This document shows positions 6,415-18,507 of a stretch of DNA of 64,000 nucleotides, in pieces. The DNA is from Formicincola oecophyllae (GTDB lineage Bacteria > Pseudomonadota > Alphaproteobacteria > Acetobacterales > Acetobacteraceae). Below the pieces are notes generated by a model that ran no database searches, was not told the DNA's origin, and saw only the letters and a list, made by a program, of their open reading frames with translations. The position numbers and the translations under genes are program-made. Every line of letters begins with the position of its first letter. Within the stretch, counting starts at the first letter, position 1. The stretch spans positions 744,001 to 808,000 of the forward strand of contig NZ_CP038231.1 in assembly GCF_006542395.2 (NCBI RefSeq), written 5' to 3'.

Positions 6415-9174
6415 ATGACTACTATACCGCCACATCCTTTTGACCCTAGCCTATATCTACCTTGGGGCAAGTTTGGCCGCCTGGTTGGTGAGGGCAACAC
6501 TGCTGGCAAGGAACGGCAATGGATGGGGGATGGCAGAGACGTATTCCTGCCCCTTCACCGCCACATGCTTGATGTGGCTGCGGTTTTCCTGGAACTCATG
6601 CAGTTGCCGACGCAACGCTGCCTGCTGGAGGGGGCGGCCGGAACCCCCTTGACTGACGGCCAGATAAGCCGTCTGGCTTTCCTGGTGGCCCTCCATGACA
6701 TCGGCAAAGTCAACAGTGGCTTCCAGTTCAAGATTTTCCCTCCTGCCCCAGCTATGCCAGCCCCTACAGGCCATGTACGACAAGGTTGGGAAATGCTCTC
6801 AGGCGCCCCAGAAACTGGGTTTTATCTAGAACATCCCTGTCTAACCAAGATTCTGTATGATTGGTGTGACAAAACAACCTTTGAAGATGAAGGTCCTGAT
6901 TCTATAGACAGTCTTCTGCTAGCCGTCATTAACCACCATGGTTACTGCAATGTAGGTGAACGTGGCAGCGTGCGCTCTAACCACCAAGACCACCATCCCT
7001 ACAGCAGCTACAGCCCAGGCGAAGCCTTTAACCAGCTCTTTGACCAGCTTCATCAGGCTTTCCCGGAAGCGTTTGAGCCAACCTGCCCTCCCCTGCCTTA
7101 CAGCACGGAACTGCAGCACCATCTGAATGGCCTCACCAGCTTGGCAGACCAGGTTGGTTCACGCGAAGCTGACTTCCCCGTCAAAAGGACAAACCTTGAA
7201 CCAGTGGCTGCCCTGGCGGACAGCCGCAAGCGCGCCCGCCAGGCTTTGGTGAAGTTGGGGCTGGATGTTAGCCCCTGGCGCCTTCCCCCTTCCGCTCCTA
7301 TGGAAGAGGCCGCGCTTTTTGGCTGGCCCGGCCATGCCGCGGCTTCCGACATGCAGCAGCTGACCGCCCAGGTGACTGAGCGCGTGGCCGTGCTTGAATC
7401 AGAGACCGGTTCAGGCAAAACCGAAGCGGCCCTGATGCTTTTCATGAGGCTTTTTGCGGAGGGGAAAGTGGATGGCCTTTATTTCGCCATCCCCACGCGC
7501 GCCGCTGCCTCCAGCCTGCACAGAAGGGTGCAGGAAGCTTGCAAGAGACTTTTTCGCAAGGACACCATCCTGGCCGTCCCTGGCTATGTGCGCTTTGGGC
7601 AGCATGAGGTCAGCGAACACCTGCCAGGGTTCGAGGTACGGTGGGATGATGACCCACCCAACCATGAAGAGCGCTGGGCGGCGGAAAACGCACGCCATTT
7701 CCTGGCCTATCCTTTGGCTGTCGGTACCATCGACCAGGCCATGATGGGCGCCATGCACGTGAAATGGTCGCATATGCGTGCCAGCGCCTTGGCGCGTTCC
7801 TTGCTGGTGGTGGATGAAGTCCATGCCTCAGACGTCTACATGACTGAAATTGGGCGGCGCTTAGTGCAGGCCCATGTCAAGCGCGGCGGCCATGCCCTGC
7901 TGATGTCCGCCACGCTTGGCGCTGCCGCCCGTGCTGAATGGCTGGGCACCAGCCCAGCCACCACGGCGCAGGAGCGTGAAGGCGTGCCCTACCCTTGCCT
8001 GACCACCCTGGACAGCCAAGGCCACGAGCGCCACGTGGCTTTCAAGGCTTCAGAACGCCAACCACCCAAGCAGGTCACGCTCCAGCTCAGCGACATCATC
8101 AAGCAACCTGACGCTGTGGCCGCCATGGCGCTGGAGGGCGCGCGCCAAGGGTTGCGGGTCCTCATCATCCGCAACACGGTCTCAGCGGCCCAAGCCACTT
8201 TTGAGGCTTTGGAGGCACAAGACCCTAAAAATACTGTGCCTACACTGGAGGTGAACGGCGTCCACACCCTCCATCACAGCCGCTTCAGCCCAGAGGACCG
8301 CAAAAGCCTTGATGGCGCGGTGGAGGGCCTTTTGGGCAAGCACGTGCCACAGCTCAGCCAAGGCTGCATCGTCATGGGCACCCAAACGCTGGAGCAGAGT
8401 CTGGATATTGACGCAGACCTGCTCATAACCGACCTATGCCCTGTGGATGTCCTTCTGCAGCGCCTGGGGCGCCTGCACCGCCACCAGCGCAGGCGCCCCG
8501 AAGCGGCCCAACAGGCACGCTGCCTTGTACTTTCACCAGGAGAAATTATCCCTAAAGACACCACCATGCTTGCCTATGGCCTGGGCCTGACGGAGTCAGG
8601 TGGCGTCTACCGTGATCTGCGCATGCTTGAGGCCACCAGGAGGCTGATTCAGGAAAAACCCCTCTGGACCATCCCCCAGGACAACAGGATGCTGGTGGAA
8701 CGCGGTACAGACCCGGAAACTTTGCAGGCCCTTCAAAAAGCCTTGGCCCAGGCACAAGGCCCAGACTGGAATGACCGCTCCCATTTGCTTGAAGGCAAGC
8801 AAATGGCTGAAGGCCTGGCAGGACAGTCTGCCTGCGTGGAGCGTGCCAAGCCTTATGGCCAGACTGCCGGCCCCCTCATGGATGGCCATTTCCGCACCCG
8901 CCTGGGATTGAACAGCCTGACTGTCACCTTTTCCCGACCAGTGCCGGGACCTTTGGGCAATGCCGTCCACAGCCTGACCATCCCCCAGCACATGGCCAGG
9001 AAGATTTTCTCCAACCAAGAAGATGATGAAGGCGCTTGGCCAGACCAGAACGTGGATGCTGAGGAGGTCTCAACAGGCACTGGACAGGAGAAGCAACTGC
9101 ACTTTAACTTGCACGGTTGGCACATCATTTATGACCGCACTGGGGTGCACATGACCAGCCACCAGGAGGCTTGA
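6415..9174 (+). CDS. cas3: CRISPR-associated nuclease-helicase Cas3 (type I-E)
   Basis: Cas3 is recruited by target-bound Cascade to nick, unwind and degrade DNA. The 919-residue protein has an N-terminal HD nuclease with HRHMLD and LHDIGK (His94-Asp95) and the INHHG motif. A superfamily 2 helicase follows: Walker A ETGSGKTEAA (about residue 330), the DEVH box at 467-470, motif III LLMSATLG, and motif VI QRLGRLHRH. Length and domain order fit the fused HD-helicase Cas3 of type I-E. It is first in the operon, 4 nt before cas8e, and shows no frameshift or lost catalytic residue that I can see. Confidence 0.97.
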   Translation: MTTIPPHPFDPSLYLPWGKFGRLVGEGNTAGKERQWMGDGRDVFLPLHRHMLDVAAVFLELMQLPTQRCLLEGAAGTPLTDGQISRLAFLVALHDIGKVNSGFQFKIFPPAPAMPAPTGHVRQGWEMLSGAPETGFYLEHPCLTKILYDWCDKTTFEDEGPDSIDSLLLAVINHHGYCNVGERGSVRSNHQDHHPYSSYSPGEAFNQLFDQLHQAFPEAFEPTCPPLPYSTELQHHLNGLTSLADQVGSREADFPVKRTNLEPVAALADSRKRARQALVKLGLDVSPWRLPPSAPMEEAALFGWPGHAAASDMQQLTAQVTERVAVLESETGSGKTEAALMLFMRLFAEGKVDGLYFAIPTRAAASSLHRRVQEACKRLFRKDTILAVPGYVRFGQHEVSEHLPGFEVRWDDDPPNHEERWAAENARHFLAYPLAVGTIDQAMMGAMHVKWSHMRASALARSLLVVDEVHASDVYMTEIGRRLVQAHVKRGGHALLMSATLGAAARAEWLGTSPATTAQEREGVPYPCLTTLDSQGHERHVAFKASERQPPKQVTLQLSDIIKQPDAVAAMALEGARQGLRVLIIRNTVSAAQATFEALEAQDPKNTVPTLEVNGVHTLHHSRFSPEDRKSLDGAVEGLLGKHVPQLSQGCIVMGTQTLEQSLDIDADLLITDLCPVDVLLQRLGRLHRHQRRRPEAAQQARCLVLSPGEIIPKDTTMLAYGLGLTESGGVYRDLRMLEATRRLIQEKPLWTIPQDNRMLVERGTDPETLQALQKALAQAQGPDWNDRSHLLEGKQMAEGLAGQSACVERAKPYGQTAGPLMDGHFRTRLGLNSLTVTFSRPVPGPLGNAVHSLTIPQHMARKIFSNQEDDEGAWPDQNVDAEEVSTGTGQEKQLHFNLHGWHIIYDRTGVHMTSHQEA

Positions 9175-9178
9175 TCTC

Positions 9179-10960
9179 ATGACCACGGAAACACCACCAG
9201 ACCTTGCGCTTGGTAACCTCCTCACGGATCCCTTGATCCGCACCCACAAGCTGGATGGCTCGCTCCAGTCCTTGTCATTGCCAGGGGTCCTGGCTGCCCT
9301 CATGCGTGATGAGGTCGCCTCATTCCCAGCTTTGCGCCGCCATCAGGCGCCAGCATGGCACATGTTCCTGGCCCAGTTGGGCGCGTTGGCTTTGCTGCGC
9401 TCTGGCCAAAAGGCCCCTCCAGAACAGCCAGAGGGCTGGGTTACGCTTCTGCGTCAACTCGTGGCCAGTGAAAGAGGCCCTGAACAGGCAGCTGAATGGG
9501 GGGACGCACCTTGGTGCCTGGTTGTTGGGGACCACACCAAACCGGCTTTCCTGCAACCCCCTTCTCCTGGGAAGTTGTCCCCAGACGGCAAAGGGATGTC
9601 TGTTTTCCCTACCCCTGATGAAATGGACCTGTTGGTCACAGCCAAGAATGTGGACCTCAAACGCAATGTCGTGCGGCAGGCCCAACCTGATGACTGGCTG
9701 TTCGCCCTCATCAACTTCCAAACCATGAATGGCTACACAGGCCGTGGCCACCAAGGCATCGCCCGCATGAATGGCGGGTTCTCCTCACGCCCCTTTTTCA
9801 GCCTGCACCCCTTGGGCGCCCATGTGGGGGGCCACATCAGACGGGACATGAAAGCCATGCTGCGCCGCCGTCCGGAACTGCAGCAACAATACGCCATGCA
9901 TTATCCAGAGCCAGAAAAAGGCAAGGCCCTCCTGTGGTTGCTGCCATGGGATGGCGGTGCCCAAAGCGGGCTTTCGCTGTCTGCGCTTGACCTGTGGTTT
10001 CTGGAGGTGTGCCGTCGGGTGCGCCTGGTCACCACAGCCACGGGCGCTTGGGAAGCCCTGGAAGCAACGGCTGACAAACCACGCATTGCCAATGCCAAGG
10101 ACCTTAAGGGCAACACAGGTGATTTCTGGGCCCCTTTGGAAATCACCACAGAAGGTCCAAAAGCTTTCAGTGCCACCAGCCAAGGATTCACTCGGGGTAA
10201 ACTGTGTGAAATCCTATTTGGCATTAAAACGAAGTCTGGTTCGTCATGGAAGTTGCCACCATCCTTGAGAGCTGCTGGTGAAACTAACCAAGTCCTTCTC
10301 ATGAGGGCAGCTGTGCTGGCCCGCAGCGAAGGCAAAACAAAAGGCTACCATGAAATTGTTGTGCCATTTGGCCCCCATTTCACCAGGCGTCTTCAAGGAG
10401 CTGAAGTTCAGAGAAAATATTTAGCCACACAAGCTCAAAAACAACTTGAGGATATCAGCCAAATCGACAAAGCCTTGGCCCGTGCCTGCGCTTTGTGGGC
10501 AAAAGGTGGAAAAACCTCCAATAATAGAGAATCTGACGGTAAAAATAAAAACGATGATAAAAAAGATACAAATAAAGGCCATCAAAAGAAGAATTATACC
10601 CCTTACCGTAAAGAACTTGATCACCACGTTGATGAATTATTCTTCAACATGCTGAATGATTATATGGAAAAATTAGATGTGGAAAACAAAAAAGATGCTG
10701 AAACACTTTATCATGAATGGCTGGTCAAAATGGTCGATTACGGAGATAAGTTGTTGGAAAAGGCCATGAAAACCATTCCATGCCCCTATCTCCAGCGTCC
10801 CAAAGGGCGAGTCGCGGCCATAAATGCTTATCGAAAATATTTGATTTACAGCGAGGATGGCCAGTTCAGTGCTTCTAAAGAGCTGCGCCAACATTGGGGG
10901 TGGAACAAGGCCACACCATCTGAACAACCAGCCCCTGCAACACTGGACCAGCAGTCATGA
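9179..10960 (+). CDS. cas8e: Cascade large subunit Cas8e (Cse1/CasA)
   Basis: Cas8e recognises the PAM and recruits Cas3. The N-terminus (NLLTDPLIRTHKLDGSLQSL) and the block FQTMNGYTGRGHQGIARMN are typical of Cse1. At 593 residues it is longer than the roughly 500 of E. coli CasA. Much of the excess is a low-complexity, Lys/Asn/Asp-rich stretch at about residues 441-476, encoded by AT-rich DNA, just before the C-terminal helical bundle. An AGGAGG Shine-Dalgarno overlaps the end of cas3. The stop overlaps the cse2 start as ATGA. Confidence 0.95.
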   Translation: MTTETPPDLALGNLLTDPLIRTHKLDGSLQSLSLPGVLAALMRDEVASFPALRRHQAPAWHMFLAQLGALALLRSGQKAPPEQPEGWVTLLRQLVASERGPEQAAEWGDAPWCLVVGDHTKPAFLQPPSPGKLSPDGKGMSVFPTPDEMDLLVTAKNVDLKRNVVRQAQPDDWLFALINFQTMNGYTGRGHQGIARMNGGFSSRPFFSLHPLGAHVGGHIRRDMKAMLRRRPELQQQYAMHYPEPEKGKALLWLLPWDGGAQSGLSLSALDLWFLEVCRRVRLVTTATGAWEALEATADKPRIANAKDLKGNTGDFWAPLEITTEGPKAFSATSQGFTRGKLCEILFGIKTKSGSSWKLPPSLRAAGETNQVLLMRAAVLARSEGKTKGYHEIVVPFGPHFTRRLQGAEVQRKYLATQAQKQLEDISQIDKALARACALWAKGGKTSNNRESDGKNKNDDKKDTNKGHQKKNYTPYRKELDHHVDELFFNMLNDYMEKLDVENKKDAETLYHEWLVKMVDYGDKLLEKAMKTIPCPYLQRPKGRVAAINAYRKYLIYSEDGQFSASKELRQHWGWNKATPSEQPAPATLDQQS

Positions 10961-11565
10961 CTGAAAACACGCCTTCCCCTGCCGCCCAGCCCCCGACCAT
11001 GAACATGAAAGAGTGCTTGAAGGAAAAGCGCTTGAAGGAACTGATCACTCATGATTTGCCCCGCATGATGCCAGGCCCCCTTGCCCAGCTCCGCCGGGGT
11101 GGCAACGCTGGGCGGCATGTGCCTGAATTCTGGAAGCTTTGGGTCAAGTATGATTTAGGCCTTGTGCGCCTCAACAAGGATGAAGAGGCGCGCTACCCAG
11201 AAGGCTCTGCGGCCTTCCGCAAACATGCCTGGGCTTTGGCACTGCAGGCTTTGGCATCCCTCCGTCCCAAAGGCCAGCCAGGGGCAGCGCCAGCGAAATT
11301 CACCCAACACCCATCCGAAATTCCCTTGGGCAAGGCCATGGCTTTGGGAAAAGTCAGTAACTTACGCATGAGCCGCTTGCTCAGCGCGCCTTATGGCAAA
11401 CGCGCTGAAATGATGTTGCGCCTCCTGCCTCTTATCAGCCAAGACCAAAAATTCAATCTTGTTGAATTGGGGTTGTTCATCCTCAATCCTGATCAAAAGG
11501 CTAGTGAAAAGCTAGCTGAATCCTACTACTACACCTTAGAACAGATAGAAAAAGCCTCATCTTAA
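10957..11565 (+). CDS. cse2: Cascade small subunit Cse2 (CasB)
   Basis: Cse2 forms the dimeric inner ridge of Cascade that stabilises the R-loop. The protein is 202 residues, mostly helical, with the family block VPEFWKLWVKYDLG and the C-terminal helices around KRAEMMLRLLPLI. The ATG at 10957 overlaps the cas8e stop by 4 nt. The gene is followed by a 52-nt gap before cas7e, the only notable gap among the interference genes. Confidence 0.92.
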   Translation: MTENTPSPAAQPPTMNMKECLKEKRLKELITHDLPRMMPGPLAQLRRGGNAGRHVPEFWKLWVKYDLGLVRLNKDEEARYPEGSAAFRKHAWALALQALASLRPKGQPGAAPAKFTQHPSEIPLGKAMALGKVSNLRMSRLLSAPYGKRAEMMLRLLPLISQDQKFNLVELGLFILNPDQKASEKLAESYYYTLEQIEKASS

Positions 11566-11617
11566 CCGTGAACACCCACTTCATTTCCTTCAATGCCTCT
11601 ACCCAAAGGATTCCATT

Positions 11618-12805
11618 ATGAACGCTATTCCTCGCTTCCTGCAGATTCACACCCTTCACAATTATACAGGGGCCTTGCTTAACCGTGATGACAGCGGCTG
11701 GGCCAAACGCTTGCCTTATGGTGACGCCGTCCGCACACGCATCTCATCACAGTGCCTCAAGCGCCACTGGCGCATGCATGAAGGCCTGCTGAGCCTGCGT
11801 TCCATTGACGCCCTGCCCCATTCCCTGCGTTCCCGAGAATTTGTGAAGCAGCGAATGCGTGCCCCTCTGAATAATGAGTTTAAAGGGGAGCGTGAGCAGG
11901 CGATCCTCAATGCTGTGGAGGACGCTTTCCAAAAGGCCATTTATGGTGAAAAAGGCACCACCAAAACCAGCCGCCAACCCCTTCTTCTAGGCGTGCCTGA
12001 GGTGGAATATTTGACCGACAACTTCGCCAAAATCGCCCGCGCCGCCTTGGCGGAAGGGGAAGACGCCAAGGGCGCCAGCAAACGCGCTGAAGCCTGGTGC
12101 AAGGATATCAAGAAAAACCTTGCCACCCTGCGTGAAAACACCACTGCCCCAGCTGGTCTGGCTGGTGCGCTTTTTGGCCGCATGGTCACGTCAGATCCTG
12201 CAGCCAACATCGATGCCCCCATTTACGTGGCCCATGCCTTCACCACCCACGCTGCCCAGGATGAATGCGATTATTTCACAGTGGTCGATGACTTAATGGC
12301 GGATGATGACACTGGCGCAGGTCACATTAATGAAACAGAGCTCACCAGTGGGCTTTTCTATGGCTATGTGGTGGTGGACGTCCGGGGCCTCATCGCCAAC
12401 CTGACGGGCAAAAAACCTACAGAGCAGGCTGAGCTGGCGCCTGAAGACCGCGAATTGGCCGGGGAGGTCGTGCGCCGCCTCATTCACAGCATCGCTGAGG
12501 TCAGCCCAGGCGCCAAACTCGGCTCCACAGCGCCATTTGGCTATGCCAGCACTGTTATGGTGGAAGCAGGCGACCGCCAGCCCCGCAGCCTGGCTGGCGC
12601 CTTCCGCCGCGCCACCCAGCCAGATTTCAAGGCCGCCGAAAAGGCTTTGGCTGCTGAACTTCAGAAGTTCGATGAAAACTACGCCACTGGCGAAAAACGC
12701 CGCTTCATGAACCTGAACAAGGAAACACAGTTCAACAACGCTGAACGCGCTTCCATGCCAGCTGTGGCGGACTGGGCCAAATCCTTGGTGGTGGGTCACG
12801 GCTGA
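11618..12805 (+). CDS. cas7e: Cascade backbone Cas7e (Cse4/CasC)
   Basis: Cas7e forms the hexameric backbone that binds the crRNA spacer. This 395-residue protein has the typical opening IHTLHNYTGALLNRDDSGWAK... and SSQCLKRHWR near residue 45. Its stop overlaps the cas5e start as TGATG. The segment 12096-12129 (codons around Cys161-Leu171) is strongly similar to a spacer in CRISPR array 2 at 18385-18418; the finding on that spacer gives details. Nothing suggests the gene itself is damaged. Confidence 0.96.
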   Translation: MNAIPRFLQIHTLHNYTGALLNRDDSGWAKRLPYGDAVRTRISSQCLKRHWRMHEGLLSLRSIDALPHSLRSREFVKQRMRAPLNNEFKGEREQAILNAVEDAFQKAIYGEKGTTKTSRQPLLLGVPEVEYLTDNFAKIARAALAEGEDAKGASKRAEAWCKDIKKNLATLRENTTAPAGLAGALFGRMVTSDPAANIDAPIYVAHAFTTHAAQDECDYFTVVDDLMADDDTGAGHINETELTSGLFYGYVVVDVRGLIANLTGKKPTEQAELAPEDRELAGEVVRRLIHSIAEVSPGAKLGSTAPFGYASTVMVEAGDRQPRSLAGAFRRATQPDFKAAEKALAAELQKFDENYATGEKRRFMNLNKETQFNNAERASMPAVADWAKSLVVGHG

Positions 12806-13566
12806 TGCGCTTTCTCGCCCTGCATTTCCAAGCGCCCTTGGCCAGCTTTGGTGATGTCATGGTGGACAACTATGGCAACACAGCGCTTTTCCCTGCCCTG
12901 TCCATGGTCACGGGGCTGCTGGCCAATGCATTGGGTTATGACCGCACGGAGAAAACACGTCTGGACGCCCTTCAAAAAAGCCTTCTCCTTGGTTCCTTCC
13001 ACTGGGGCCCAGCACCCGAACGCTTGCCAGACTTCCAAACCCTTCGCCTTAATGAGCCTGGCGAACACTGGCTTAACCAAGGCTGGACAAGCTTTGGCGC
13101 ACCTGAGGGGCGCGATGGCGAAAAAAAGCCAGCTACCCATATCCGCTACCGTCACTACCTGGCTGACGTGGACATGAACGTGCTTGTGGCTTCCCAACCA
13201 ACAGGCCACGGCGCGCCCACGCTGGGTGATTTCGAACAGGCTTTGCTCAAGCCGGCCCGCCCCCTCTCACTGGGCCGCAAGCCTTGCCTGCCTTCAGCCC
13301 CCCTTTTGGCAGTCACGCCGCAGAACCGCTACGTGGAGGGGACTTCAATGCGTGAAGCCCTCCTCACCCTGGCCACACGCCGCGCCAGAACCATGGACCC
13401 CCCACCTTCCACCATCACTCTGCAGCGTCCCGCCAATGAATCAGACGAAGCATTGCGAACCAAGTCCATCACAGATGAACGCAACTGGATTGGTGGCTTC
13501 CATGGCGGTGAACGGCAAGTGGTGGTTGAAGCCAACGTTCAGTTGCCCCCTTTGGAAAGCCCGTGA
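12805..13566 (+). CDS. cas5e: Cascade subunit Cas5e (CasD)
   Basis: Cas5e caps the crRNA 5' handle at the foot of Cascade. The 253-residue RAMP protein starts MRFLALHFQAPLASFGD and has the TGLLANALGYDR block, both typical of CasD. The start codon overlaps the cas7e stop (TGATG) and the end overlaps the cas6e start by 4 nt, so the subunits are translationally coupled. Confidence 0.94.
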   Translation: MRFLALHFQAPLASFGDVMVDNYGNTALFPALSMVTGLLANALGYDRTEKTRLDALQKSLLLGSFHWGPAPERLPDFQTLRLNEPGEHWLNQGWTSFGAPEGRDGEKKPATHIRYRHYLADVDMNVLVASQPTGHGAPTLGDFEQALLKPARPLSLGRKPCLPSAPLLAVTPQNRYVEGTSMREALLTLATRRARTMDPPPSTITLQRPANESDEALRTKSITDERNWIGGFHGGERQVVVEANVQLPPLESP

Positions 13567-14306
13567 CCATGACTAGCCCCCTTCACCTCATTCATATCCC
13601 CATCAACGCCCAGGACTTGATTATGTGGGGCTTGCGACAGACAGCAAGGGGGGAGTCTTCTGACCTCGATTATGGCATGATGCTTCACAAGCTTCTCTCG
13701 GCCAGTTTCGGCAAAGGCGCCATCCAGCCATTCAGGCTCTTCACCCCCAAGGTCGGCCAATGGGGGCTTTATGGTTACAGCGCTGAAAACGCTGATGCCC
13801 TACGCGCCTCAGCTGCCCTGCATATGACGCCTGACATGGACCACGCCCTGCCCCTCAATAAGATGCGTTCCAAAACCATGCCCGCCATCAAGGCCGGCAC
13901 GCGTTTGGGTTATGACATCCTGACCCGCCCCACGCGCCGCCTGACCAGTGACGGCAAAACTAAGGAGCAGGACGCCTTCGTCATGGCCTGCCACACAGCA
14001 GCAGCACAGCCAGAAGCGTCCCCCCCAGAACGGGCCCAAATTTATGAGGACTGGCTGCGTGAGCGCCTCTCCTCCTCAGGCAAGCCCATCGCCACGCTGG
14101 ACAGTTTCCGCCTGGCCCACTTCGCCACCAGCAGGGCCAACCGCAATCACAAGACCATCACAGGGCCTGAAGCCACCTTCCAGGGAACATTGACCGTGCA
14201 GGATGCCGACGCTTTCGCCAATCTCCTGCGCCATGGGTTGGGACGACATAAGGCCTATGGCTATGGCATGGTCTTGTTGCGCCCGGCAGACCGCGGCACA
14301 CCCTGA
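13563..14306 (+). CDS. cas6e: CRISPR RNA endonuclease Cas6e (CasE)
   Basis: Cas6e cuts the repeat hairpin to release crRNAs and stays bound to the 3' end. The 247-residue protein carries the C-terminal glycine-rich loop GLGRHKAYGYGMVLL that marks Cas6e. The start is either GTG at 13563, overlapping the cas5e stop as GTGA, or ATG two codons later at 13569. Its expected substrate, a stem of CCCCGC and GCGGGG with an ACAC loop, is present in the adjacent arrays. Confidence 0.94.
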   Translation: MTMTSPLHLIHIPINAQDLIMWGLRQTARGESSDLDYGMMLHKLLSASFGKGAIQPFRLFTPKVGQWGLYGYSAENADALRASAALHMTPDMDHALPLNKMRSKTMPAIKAGTRLGYDILTRPTRRLTSDGKTKEQDAFVMACHTAAAQPEASPPERAQIYEDWLRERLSSSGKPIATLDSFRLAHFATSRANRNHKTITGPEATFQGTLTVQDADAFANLLRHGLGRHKAYGYGMVLLRPADRGTP

Positions 14307-14339
14307 AAAACGCCAGCACCTGTTAATCAAGGACATGCC

Positions 14340-15248
14340 ATGCTCAAAGGTCGCTTGGGGCTTGCCACATCCCGCGTTCCCCACAATGAACGCGCAGGCC
14401 TGCTTTACCTGGAACGCGGCACCTTAAGCGCCCGTGACGGCACCTTGGCCTTTCTGCAAGGCCAGGGCTTGGAAGGGCCCATGCCACCTGGTGAGTATGA
14501 CGTTCCCATACAAGGCATCTCCATCATATTGCTGGGCCCTGGCAGTTCAGTAACGCACGATGCGCTGCGCCTTCTGGCCCGTGCCAACACGGCCTTGGCC
14601 GCTGTTGGCATGGACGGCGTGCGCTGCTACACCGCCCCCCCTTTGATGAGCGACCAATCCGCTCTTGCCCGCGCCCAAACCACCGCCTGGGCAGACCTTA
14701 AACAGCGCAACGCGGTGGCACGCCAAATGTATGCGTGGCGCATGGGCAAAAAACTGCCTTACCGGGATATTGCGGCCCTGCGCGGCATTGAAGGCGCCCA
14801 TGTGCGCGAAAGCTACAAAATCATTGCGGACCGCATTGGCATCAAATGGAAAGGGCGCCGTTACGACCGCGCCAACCCAGAAGGCGCTGACATGCCCAAC
14901 CAGGCCATTAACCATGCCGCCAGCGCTGTGGAGGCAGCCGCCCTCATAGCCGTCTACGCCACAGCCACCATTCCACAGCTAGGCTTCATCCATGAGGATT
15001 CCGGGCATTCCTTCGCTTTGGACATAGCTGACCTTTTCCGTGCGGAAATCACCGTCCCCTGCGCTTTCCGCGCTGCCAAAGAGGCCATGAAAGGCCAGGG
15101 CACCGTGGAACGACTGGCACGGCGGGAAACAGGGCGCGCCTTGAGCGCGCACAAGGTCATCCCAGACATGATCAAGCGCATCAAAGCGCTGTTCGACAAG
15201 GAAACAGCCTCTGACATGCAGCAAATAGGCAAACCGCCATGCCCATGA
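14340..15248 (+). CDS. cas1: CRISPR integrase Cas1 (type I-E)
   Basis: Cas1 integrates new spacers with Cas2. The 302-residue protein has the metal-binding block GFIHEDSGHSFALDIADLF; His218 corresponds to His208 of E. coli Cas1, and the Asp residues of LDIADL to its Asp218/221 region. IEGAHVRESYK holds the catalytic Glu region. An AAGGA Shine-Dalgarno precedes the ATG at 14340. The gene overlaps cas2 by 10 nt. Residues appear intact, so adaptation is probably functional if a leader is present. Confidence 0.96.
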   Translation: MLKGRLGLATSRVPHNERAGLLYLERGTLSARDGTLAFLQGQGLEGPMPPGEYDVPIQGISIILLGPGSSVTHDALRLLARANTALAAVGMDGVRCYTAPPLMSDQSALARAQTTAWADLKQRNAVARQMYAWRMGKKLPYRDIAALRGIEGAHVRESYKIIADRIGIKWKGRRYDRANPEGADMPNQAINHAASAVEAAALIAVYATATIPQLGFIHEDSGHSFALDIADLFRAEITVPCAFRAAKEAMKGQGTVERLARRETGRALSAHKVIPDMIKRIKALFDKETASDMQQIGKPPCP

Positions 15249-15628
15249 CCATTGTCGTGACCAGCAATGTGGAGAGCCGTTACCGTGGGTTTCTCACCTC
15301 CATTATGTTGGAGGTCGCCGCTGGCGTTTACGTGTCCCCACGCATGTCTGTGGCTGTGCGTGAACGCACTTGGAAGGTTCTGACTGAATGGTGGTGGGCC
15401 TTGGGCAATGGCAGCCTGACCATGGTGTGGCCTGATAAAAATTTGTCAGGTGGGGTGGGCATGGCCCTTTTGGGGGAAGCGCCAAAAGACATCATTGACG
15501 CTGATGGCGTTCTCCTGGTGCGCCGCATAATGCAGGAAACCGCCACTCCGATAGCTGGTGGGCCACCTTCTCCCTCTCAGGAAGAGGCTGTTCAACAAAC
15601 CCTTGATAATGAAGAACAGATCCTATAA
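15239..15628 (+). CDS. cas2: Cas2e with C-terminal extension
   Basis: Cas2e bridges the Cas1 dimers during spacer integration. The core (MTIVVTSNV, LEVAAGVYV, DADGVLLVRRIMQ) aligns with all of the roughly 94-residue E. coli Cas2. Here about 29 extra residues follow residue 100; they are Pro/Glu/Gln-rich and of no recognised fold. The start may be ATG 15239 or ATG 15245, the latter giving an ATGA overlap with cas1. The stop lies only 8 nt before the first CRISPR repeat. The DNA encoding the tail carries a perfect IHF consensus and a promoter-like pair, so the tail may be translated leader. Confidence 0.93.
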   Translation: MPMTIVVTSNVESRYRGFLTSIMLEVAAGVYVSPRMSVAVRERTWKVLTEWWWALGNGSLTMVWPDKNLSGGVGMALLGEAPKDIIDADGVLLVRRIMQETATPIAGGPPSPSQEEAVQQTLDNEEQIL

Positions 15629-15629
15629 A
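15596..15629 (+). promoter_or_regulatory. IHF consensus and promoter-like element inside cas2e 3' end
   Basis: CAAACCCTTGATA at 15596-15608 is a 13/13 match, on the complementary strand, to the IHF consensus WATCAANNNNTTR. Overlapping it, TTGATA (15603-15608) and TATAAA (15624-15629) are spaced 15 nt, a short but possible sigma-70 pair that would start transcription at about the first repeat. The cas2e stop TAA lies inside the -10-like box. In E. coli, IHF bends the leader just upstream of the first repeat to guide Cas1-Cas2; here the site is 28 nt upstream. Function is inferred, the matches are seen. Confidence 0.55.
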
Positions 15630-15636
15630 TGCAAGA

Positions 15637-17616
15637 GTCTCCCCCGCACACGCGGGGATGAACCTTAGCTTCATTGACTGTCTTGAAAAGATTTTTCGTC
15701 TCCCCCGCACACGCGGGGATGAACCCTCGCGCGCTATCTTGGCGGCTCGCTTGTGCACGTCTCCCCCGCACACGCGGGGATGAACCCTTCAAAGTTACCT
15801 GAACGTTTTGAGCCAGCTCGTCTCCCCCGCACACGCGGGGATGAACCTCCGCCACTATGACGGTGCCGCCGGGCTTTGGCGTCTCCCCCGCACACGCGGG
15901 GATGAACCCTTGAACGCCTGGATCACCAGTTTTGTCCCGCGGTCTCCCCCGCACACGCGGGGATGAACCCGCGGCGCTGCCTTTTTTTTAGTGAAGGGTC
16001 TAGTCTCCCCCGCACACGCGGGGATGAACCTCACTGAAATCCCTGACCTGCGCAAGCCTAAAAGTCTCCCCCGCACACGCGGGGATGAACCCGCCTCCAT
16101 CTGGATTGTCGGGTGGGGTCCGCAGTCTCCCCCGCACACGCGGGGATGAACCTTACGTCACTGAGCTTCAAAAGAATGCCCTACGGTCTCCCCCGCACAC
16201 GCGGGGATGAACCCTCAAACCCAACAACGTCATCAACCTTTACGGTGTCTCCCCCGCACACGCGGGGATGAACCTGAACCACTGTTCGAGAAAACGTTCC
16301 TGAATCGGTCTCCCCCGCACACGCGGGGATGAACCTGCAACACATTTTGAGCATTTTTGCTTAAATAAGTCTCCCCCGCACACGCGGGGATGAACCATCA
16401 GCTGTTGAATGGCTAAGCCTGATTTCTGCGTCTCCCCCGCACACGCGGGGATGAACCTGACTTTAAAAGTGACGATGAAGCCCAGGAGTTGTCTCCCCCG
16501 CACACGCGGGGATGAACCGTCACGCTGCTGCTGATGGGGCCTAAGGGTAAGGTCTCCCCCGCACACGCGGGGATGAACCTCATCGTAGAGGCCTCAGGGA
16601 AAAGGTGGCGATGTCTCCCCCGCACACGCGGGGATGAACCTGCGGCCGCCCTGGTTAACCTGCGCGATCAAGCGTCTCCCCCGCACACGCGGGGATGAAC
16701 CTGAAGCTGGGGAAGCTACACATTTCACAGCATCGTCTCCCCCGCACACGCGGGGATGAACCGACAAAAAAGGCGCGTGACGCCTGGGCAGCGGAGTCTC
16801 CCCCGCACACGCGGGGATGAACCCTCGACTGGCAGGGAGTAATCATCAAGCCCTTGGTCTCCCCCGCACACGCGGGGATGAACCTCAGGATGAATGGCAA
16901 TGCCGCATGAAAGGCATGTCTCCCCCGCACACGCGGGGATGAACCTCCCTCTGTGCGGCGCCTCATCGGCATGATTCCGTCTCCCCCGCACACGCGGGGA
17001 TGAACCTGAGAGCGTGACGTATGTTGCCGGCTTCGATATGTCTCCCCCGCACACGCGGGGATGAACCCTTTGAACGCCGGCACTCTTTAACCTGCGCCGG
17101 GTCTCCCCCGCACACGCGGGGATGAACCCATAGGCGATCGGCTGGTAGAGCCCTTCCTAGCGTCTCCCCCGCACACGCGGGGATGAACCGCATCTGCGTC
17201 CAGAAGCCTTCACCCTGGCGGTGTCTTCCCCGCACACGCGGGGATGAACCTCATTTCCCACGCCAGCGCGCAGGAAATCGCAAGTCTCCCCCGCACACGC
17301 GGGGATGAACCTGCCACCGTCCCCGGCGTGACGATGCGCCACCCGTCTCCCCCGCACACGCGGGGATGAACCTGAGCTTATACGTCTCATAAGAGATAGC
17401 GTTCGGTCTCCCCCGCACACGCGGGGATGAACCGCACGTTCTTAGTGAGGATCAGGCCATTAATGAGTCTCCCCCGCACACGCGGGGATGAACCGGAGAT
17501 TCTTTACTCCCATTTTGGTGTTACTACGTCTCCCCCGCACACGCGGGGATGAACCCTGGGTGAAGCCCGCGTGAAAGCCATGGCTGTGGTCTCCCCCGCA
17601 CACGCGGGGACAAATC
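15637..17616 (+). CRISPR. CRISPR array 1, type I-E, 33 repeats / 32 spacers
   Basis: The 28-nt repeat runs GTCTCCCCCGCACAC then GCGGGGATGAACC. It is spaced exactly 61 nt throughout, so all 32 spacers are 33 nt. The hairpin is CCCCGC-ACAC-GCGGGG and the predicted crRNA 5' handle is AUGAACC plus the first spacer base. One internal repeat (17223) has a C-to-T change. The last repeat (17589-17616) differs at three of its final seven bases, marking the leader-distal end. Repeat orientation puts the leader end next to cas2e. Spacers are all different; many read as open coding frames, as expected for phage or plasmid targets, but I cannot identify these. Confidence 0.99.
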
Positions 17617-17626
17617 TCGTCATTCT

Positions 17627-17653
17627 GTTAAGCTGGTTTGATCGTTAAGCAGG
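17627..17653 (+). promoter_or_regulatory. Direct repeat, possible operator of the inter-array gene pair
   Basis: GTTAAGCTGG (17627-17636) and GTTAAGCAGG (17644-17653) match at 9 of 10 bases with starts 17 nt apart. They lie about 55 nt before the small membrane-peptide gene, whose downstream partner encodes an HTH protein. Binding by that protein is only an inference from position. Confidence 0.3.
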
Positions 17654-17706
17654 TGGGTGTTGGTTGAAAAGCCAGCCCCCAGGTTCTTGCTTTGGAAGAC
17701 AGTGAA

Positions 17707-17829
17707 ATGGAAACGATCGTCTCAAGAATTCTTAACAATCCGCTTTATTGGTGGCTATTTTGGGTTTTGGCAGTCATGGCGGGCGTGTTCGGCCTGGTCA
17801 TTGGCTACAGGTTTGGAACTTCATTATGA
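17707..17829 (+). CDS. 40-residue single-span membrane peptide
   Basis: This short ORF encodes 40 residues: METIVSRILNNP, then a Trp/Leu/Val-rich membrane helix at about residues 13-33 (LYWWLFWVLAVMAGVFGLVI), then YRFGTSL. A GGAAG Shine-Dalgarno lies 9 nt before the ATG. Its TGA overlaps the ATG of the following HTH gene (ATGA), which strongly suggests the two are one translational unit. Size and shape resemble small membrane toxins or phage holin-like peptides, but no family is recognised. It lies between two CRISPR arrays. Function unknown. Confidence 0.65.
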   Translation: METIVSRILNNPLYWWLFWVLAVMAGVFGLVIGYRFGTSL

Positions 17830-18185
17830 GTGAGAAGGTTCCCAACGCGTTTGGATGCCTGTTGAAAGCCGCTGGGCTATCCCGTGAAACGGCCAGCATT
17901 TATCTGGAGGTCTCTCCCAAAACGTTGGCACAATGGTTGTGGAAAGGGGTGAAACCACCCCATGGCGTTCTGACTGAGCTAAACCAGCTCATTGAGAAAA
18001 CCCAGCAACAGGCTGAGCTGTTGGCGGAGATGGACACCATCCCAGTTTCTTTGACTGAGGAACAAGCCCAGCAAGCTGGCTGGCCTGGCTTGGACACGGA
18101 ACGGCATTGCTTGGGTATGGCGTTAGCTAAGCGACTGCAGGCCAATAAGCCACTGCCCACTTTTGTGCCTGCCCACCATGAGTGA
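17826..18185 (+). CDS. Helix-turn-helix DNA-binding protein (unassigned family)
   Basis: A 119-residue protein. Residues 8-45 (AFGCLLKAAGLSRETASIYL, then VSPKTLAQWLWKGVKPP) read as an XRE/Cro-like helix-turn-helix. A long helix follows (VLTELNQLIEKTQQQAELLAEM), then a C-terminal region with GWPGLDTERHCLGMALAKRL. Size and layout recall YdiL/DUF1870-type or phage-encoded regulators, at low confidence. The ATG overlaps the stop of the membrane-peptide gene. Its own stop lies in a 20-bp perfect palindrome, 49 nt before CRISPR array 2. It could be the antitoxin or regulator of the pair; this is inference from context. Confidence 0.7.
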   Translation: MSEKVPNAFGCLLKAAGLSRETASIYLEVSPKTLAQWLWKGVKPPHGVLTELNQLIEKTQQQAELLAEMDTIPVSLTEEQAQQAGWPGLDTERHCLGMALAKRLQANKPLPTFVPAHHE

Positions 18186-18202
18186 GGTTTCTGGAAACCT
18201 CA
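18183..18202. promoter_or_regulatory. Perfect 20-bp palindrome before array 2
   Basis: TGAGGTTTC-TG-GAAACCTCA is a perfect inverted repeat with 9-bp arms. It contains the stop codon of the HTH gene. No T-tract follows, so it is not a standard intrinsic terminator. As a dyad it is a plausible binding site for a dimeric HTH protein such as the one just encoded, placed where array 2 would need its promoter. Confidence 0.4.
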
Positions 18203-18234
18203 TCACAGCGTGGCACCGGGCTAGGGCACGTCTC

Positions 18235-18507
18235 GTCTCCCCCGCACACGCGGGGATGAACCCGGCAACGACATCCAGACGCCCTACTATGACGCGTCTC
18301 CCCCGCACACGCGGGGATGAACCTCCTCACTCAACAAGCGCCGCATCGGGCGCCGTGTCTCCCCCGCACACGCGGGGATGAACCAGTGCAAGGTAATCAA
18401 AAAGAACCTTGCCACCCTGTCTCCCCCGCACACGCGGGGATGAACCCGTCCAGGCCTCATCAATGACCAGGAGAGCCGGGTCTCCCCCGCACATGCGGGG
18501 ATGGATT
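18235..18507 (+). CRISPR. CRISPR array 2, type I-E, 5 repeats / 4 spacers
   Basis: It has the same 28-nt repeat and orientation as array 1. Repeats start at 18235, 18296, 18357, 18419 and 18480. Three spacers are 33 nt and one (18385-18418) is 34 nt. The last repeat is degenerate (one loop change and three changes in the final seven bases), marking the distal end. Only 49 nt separate the first repeat from the HTH gene, and they show no AT-rich leader, IHF consensus or similarity to the DNA before array 1. The 34-nt spacer resembles cas7e of this system. Confidence 0.98.

Follow-up and report, generated by a model that had tools for sequence, protein, structure and literature searches.

Spacer 35, the third of four spacers in the second of two CRISPR arrays beside a type I-E cas operon, closely resembles the cas7e gene of that same operon, and it is probably an anti-cas spacer directed against the cas7e of a sister type I-E system, with the resident copy escaping. 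The locus lies in a stretch of 64,000 nucleotides (hereafter the window) from a 1.96 Mb genome which, judged from its cas and core genes, belongs in or near the Acetobacteraceae.

The type I-E locus and its spacers

The operon (window 6415-15628) is apparently complete and comprises cas3, cse1, cse2, cas7e, cas5e, cas6e, cas1e, and cas2e. All eight reading frames (8/8) are intact and in order, and 7/8 match I-E or cas3 models, the matches of cse1 and cas6e falling under the curated cut-off, while cse2 was identified via homology to G109, the family genome with the nearest cas7e. The features of the operon and of the arrays are as follows.

6415..9174, + strand: cas3 (HD nuclease and helicase), 919 aa; NCBIfam and Pfam matches
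9179..10960, + strand: cse1/casA (cas8e), 593 aa, diverged; TIGR02547, E 9e-13 (below the curated cut-off); 50% identity to the G109 operon protein
10957..11565, + strand: cse2 (cas11), 202 aa; assigned by position and G109 homology (38.5%), without an NCBIfam match
11618..12805, + strand: cas7e, 395 aa, the resident gene resembling spacer 35; TIGR01869, E 1e-85
12096..12129, + (coding) strand: site within the resident cas7e that resembles a protospacer, with 29/34 identity to spacer 35; flanked 5' by CCT, or by CTG if read in the 33+1 register
12805..13566, + strand: cas5e; TIGR01868
13563..14306, + strand: cas6e; TIGR01907, E 1e-10, slightly under the cut-off
14340..15248, + strand: cas1e; TIGR03638
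15239..15628, + strand: cas2e; TIGR01873
15637..17616, + strand: CRISPR array 1, 33 repeats and 32 spacers of 33 nt; degenerate last repeat (17589)
16397..16429, + strand: spacer 13, 33/33 to the organism's own truA (C1:1487805-1487837; L116:7805-7837)
18235..18507, + strand: CRISPR array 2, 5 repeats and 4 spacers; degenerate last repeat (18480)
18263..18295, + strand: spacer 33, 28/33 and 27/33 to two levanase-like tail-region genes of prophage in the own genome
18385..18418, + strand: spacer 35 of 36 (third in array 2), 34 nt, probable anti-cas7e spacer
18447..18479, + strand: spacer 36, 27/33 to trbE (VirB4 family); its minus strand encodes PALLVIDEAWT

Both arrays are built on one 28-nt repeat, GTCTCCCCCGCACACGCGGGGATGAACC, and hold 32 and 4 spacers, respectively. 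The sequence-only reading had singled out spacer 35 as the sole spacer that is not 33 nt long, and this was confirmed: the other 35 of the 36 are 33 nt and spacer 35 alone is 34 nt. The degenerate last repeats place the leader end on the left, so that spacer 35 lies close to the old end of array 2, whose four intact repeats show 0 changes in 112 nt. Only 9 bp separate the cas2 stop from the start of array 1 (15628-15637), where a usual leader would not fit, and array 2 is not preceded by a leader resembling that of array 1. The gap of about 0.6 kb between the arrays (17617-18234) contains a 119-aa reading frame without a Pfam, NCBIfam, or PHROG match, and the reading frames tested between and downstream of the arrays gave no Pfam match.

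Sources were not found for most spacers, and when all spacers were compared with the own genome at the peptide level, truA, cas7e, and prophage genes were the only clear chromosomal sources. The truA and prophage matches had escaped the sequence-only reading. Spacer 4 (15848-15880) matches a prophage minor head protein gene of the own genome at 30/33 positions, and spacer 28 (17312-17344) a prophage gene for a baseplate-V-like protein at 26/33. Together with spacer 33 (28/33), they indicate that related phages have been met and that the resident prophages have partly diverged from the spacers. The two levanase-like genes that resemble spacer 33 sit amid tail genes in one prophage region (L134:5533-7440 and L134:8502-9707). 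The trbE match of spacer 36 (27/33) was found in three relatives, and the one protein scanned exceeds the curated cut-off for TrbE; for spacer 34, a 26/33 match occurs in one relative. With spacers against a conjugation gene of the trbE/VirB4 type and a prophage levanase-like gene, array 2 thus samples mobile DNA.

A spacer that matches the resident cas7e

Spacer 35 (GTGCAAGGTAATCAAAAAGAACCTTGCCACCCT) differs from cas7e positions 12096-12129 at spacer positions 1, 10, 11, 17, and 20 and is identical to them over its final 14 bases, which reproduces exactly the 29/34 match described from the letters alone. Among 500 composition shuffles of the spacer, the best match to the window reached 24/34. 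Across the whole genome (1.957 Mb), the next-best place was 22/34, above which the cas7e match stands alone, and a binomial estimate gave 1e-6 to 1e-4, about 1e-5, expected chance matches over the genome. A chance origin of the match is excluded for practical purposes, in agreement with the earlier claim. Spacer 35 has a defining property of an anti-cas spacer, a better than chance match to a cas gene of its own subtype; at 29/34 it falls short of the full match to the own genome that defines a self-targeting spacer and that spacer 13 displays in truA (33/33).

Read in the cas7e frame, the spacer encodes CKVIKKNLAT and the resident gene CKDIKKNLAT, the replacement of Asp by Val resulting from a two-base change, and the remaining two altered codons both still encode lysine. 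A match of 29/34 in frame with two synonymous changes counts for an origin in a cas7e homologue. The first base of the spacer (A) sits in resident codon 160 (TGG, Trp). If this base was copied from the source, codon 160 of the source would be xAG (Lys, Glu, or Gln), so the statement that one residue and two synonymous codons had changed holds within the frame and may have to be extended by a second replacement at codon 160. A source Lys codon (AAG) would put AA, an I-E type PAM, before a 33-nt protospacer, and with that AAG the extra base of spacer 35 would be accounted for by a slip of one base into the PAM.

The closeness of the source was assessed in a survey of 397 genomes of the family, 70 of which carry a cas7e-like gene. 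The nearest cas7e is that of G109, with about 66-68% overall identity to the resident one. Over the stretch covered by the spacer, the resident gene has 3/11 residues and 15/33 bases in common with G109, against 10/11 and 28/33 with the spacer. Conservation of the site lies under the family median (mean identity 0.23 vs 0.42 across 11 homologues, which ranks it 52 among 385 windows). Since the site is variable and the spacer agrees with the resident gene at 10/11 residues against 3/11 for G109, the source is a close relative of the resident cas7e, much nearer to it than any sequenced gene examined. Aligning the homologues at this site had been proposed as a check on the sequence-only reading, and the variability of the segment and the closeness of the spacer to the resident gene make derivation from a diverged cas7e homologue, as that reading held, well supported.

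With a tolerance of 3 mismatches, the source sequence was absent from the 397 family genomes, and it was found neither in IMG/VR or GTDB contigs with a degenerate pattern nor among plasmids; the exact match that the earlier reading had suggested looking for in family genomes, plasmids, and phages was not found. One GTDB match to the pattern, in Clostridia, was rejected as chance (20/34). A scan of GTDB with the Cas7e protein returned no relative, IMG/VR held no cas7e match, and phage records contained four cas7e-like matches, of which the two covering most of the query reach <=32% identity. The own genus and that of G109 are each represented by one genome in the data set; with such sampling, a missing exact source is expected and carries little weight.

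Related cas7e genes (48-55% amino acid identity) occur on plasmids of Azospirillum, Pontibrevibacter, Bosea, and Sphingomonas, and G109 possesses a complete I-E cas operon that belongs to this branch (L140:9663-18970). No CRISPR array was found adjoining the G109 operon, and the 34 kb retrieved around it contain none of the window neighbours that were tested. This different neighbourhood indicates that such operons move, and plasmid-borne cas7e genes of the same branch, the trbE/VirB4 and prophage spacers, and the moving operons make the transfer of sister I-E operons plausible.

Flank, seed, and first base

The listed PAMs of I-E systems are AAC, AAG, AAN, AAT, AAA, AC, AG, and AWG (PMC8482600). 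In the 33+1 register, the trinucleotide beside the protospacer in the own gene is CTG (12094-12096), not CCT, and CTG is not among these PAMs. In the same 33-nt register, seed positions 1-8 match the resident cas7e fully, and the mismatches fall at 9, 10, 16, and 19. With a perfect seed match, mismatches alone may not protect the resident gene, and its protection would have to come mostly from the flank. The earlier explanation that mismatches and the flank CCT spare the gene therefore stands for the flank, with CTG in place of CCT, and is weakened for the mismatches. Most plausibly, on these alignments, the resident cas7e is spared mainly through its flank. The flanks at the diverged prophage relatives (CAG/CAA for spacer 4, CTA/TGG for 33, and TAC for 28) and at trbE (AAC for 36) are inconsistent and yield no common PAM, and for spacers taken from five related arrays one 27/33 match was the only result above a reversed-sequence control. 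Other spacers reach at best 23/33 in the window and none falls in the cas neighbourhood, which leaves no sign that the resident site has caused priming. Type I-E reportedly prefers the template strand (PMC8482600), with which the orientation of spacer 35 is in accord.

In I-E systems, the base at the first position of a spacer can derive from the PAM (PMC8482600). Over the 36 spacers, this base is T in 17, C in 12, G in 5, and A in 2, so that T or C opens 29/36; the bias to C and T is significant (p 6e-4), and related arrays are biased likewise. The only spacers of the 36 that begin with A are 13 (truA) and 35 (cas7e), a pattern seen post hoc that has a chance of 1 in 630. These two, both matching own non-prophage genes, may be the pair with an abnormal first base, which is expected if only non-PAM matches survive; as a post hoc pattern, this serves as a lead. 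The 5' flank of the truA site is CTC, or TCA counting the first base. On the opposite strand of truA, AA immediately precedes the protospacer, which an inverted insertion would fit. Twelve younger spacers stand ahead of spacer 13 in its array, indicating that the truA self-match was tolerated during array growth.

Origin of spacer 35 and relation to known systems

What is demonstrated is the match and its significance, that its differences follow a coding pattern, that the site varies, and that the source is close to the resident gene. In the reading that we favour, the spacer would have been captured from the cas7e of a closely related, different type I-E operon entering the ancestor of the strain, on donor DNA that was probably mobile or transferred. 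The crRNA of spacer 35, if produced and active, would direct the resident Cascade-Cas3 onto the template strand of the foreign cas7e, and incoming DNA with the sister system would be destroyed. The resident cas7e would escape attack through the lack of a proper PAM (CTG) together with four more mismatches past the seed. Immunisation against the type I-E system of a relative, as already proposed from the sequence alone, is the best-supported meaning and is helped by the neighbouring VirB4/TrbE spacer, though the searches above found no source and capture from the own gene is a live, if less likely, alternative.

The main rival holds that the spacer was captured from the own cas7e and that the resident allele was afterwards mutated or replaced by that of a relative via recombination. 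That the own chromosome, or that of a near-identical strain, does get sampled is evident from spacer 13, a 33/33 copy of the own truA, and the A-first pair of spacers 13 and 35 could mark captures from abnormal sites, with the post hoc caveat given above. Escape by point mutation should, on the other hand, cluster in the PAM or seed, and here the 8-nt seed is intact and two changes are synonymous ones in the distal part. Long drift is hard to reconcile with the unchanged repeats of array 2: with 0 changes in 112 nt, slow drift after capture explains five changes in 34 poorly, an argument that is supportive only, as repeats are constrained. Self-capture is rated unlikely overall, replacement of the allele by recombination being its more tenable form. 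A source in a cas7e fragment borne by a phage or plasmid, instead of a full rival system, seems quite improbable. Plasmids bear cas7e of the same branch and phage-borne CRISPR systems exist and have been reviewed (PMC11656645), but the few phage matches described above are too distant where they cover most of the query, and IMG/VR has none.

The proposal that the crRNA leads Cascade to the resident cas7e as a roadblock that dampens cas expression draws on the perfect seed at 1-8 in the 33-nt register and on the ability of partial matches to bind Cascade without cleavage (PMC5904413). Against it, the target is 0.48 kb into a gene in the middle of the operon and not at a promoter, the flank CTG is outside the listed I-E PAMs, the crRNA is in the sense orientation relative to the cas7e mRNA, and intragenic imperfect binding of Cascade reportedly left transcription in E. 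coli unaltered (PMC5904413). Regulation, which the sequence-only reading had ranked as the less likely option, is thereby weak and we regard it as very unlikely. The idea that the resemblance arose by chance, or that the spacer came from some unrelated gene of a phage, deserves hardly any credence: nothing was found in its favour beyond the general lack of identified sources for most spacers, and it is opposed by the genome-wide expectation of about 1e-5 and by differences that are in frame and mostly synonymous.

Anti-cas spacers are already known, so spacer 35 is less new than the earlier reading supposed; what is new is the setting, type I-E beside its own cas operon. In E. coli, orphan arrays with spacers matching I-F cas genes persist in strains that lack those cas genes (PMC2886076, Touchon and Rocha 2010), and such arrays act against plasmids bearing I-F cas genes, according to accounts of Almendros et al. 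2016 in PMC8616872 and PMC5972030. Spacer 35 resembles these in matching a cas gene of the cognate subtype, with potential action against incoming cas-bearing DNA, and conjugation-gene spacers occur in the same kind of array. The E. coli arrays, however, are orphans in strains without the cognate cas genes and nearly all of their spacers hit cas genes, whereas here the system is type I-E, one spacer in four is directed at a cas gene, an apparently complete cas operon stands 6 kb away, and the own cas7e has diverged at the site. Spacers 33 and 36 of the same array match prophage and trbE. Haloferax has spacers with matches on the chromosomes of related strains, and their targeting reduces mating between species, as summarised from Turgeman-Grott et al. 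2019 in PMC12814878. There too, genes of related species or strains are matched and not phages, but that case concerns an archaeal type I-B system and cell fusion, and the present one a bacterial I-E system and one gene. Self-targeting spacers have also been reviewed, including a case in P. atrosepticum where the PAM of the target is mutated (PMC6990116); spacer 35 is similar in that it resembles an own chromosomal gene and is tolerated, and differs in that the match is 29/34 and not full, the resident allele probably not being its source.

It is conceivable, though doubtful, that competing I-E systems are told apart as self or non-self by how this Cas7e segment and the PAM beside it vary, so that a working system could keep a spacer that excludes its rivals. 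In E. coli I-F, the sole case described in detail, cas-targeting arrays and cas genes do not coexist. Spacer 35 suggests a form of exclusion between immune systems, in which a CRISPR system can immunise its cell against rivals of the same subtype and itself stay active.
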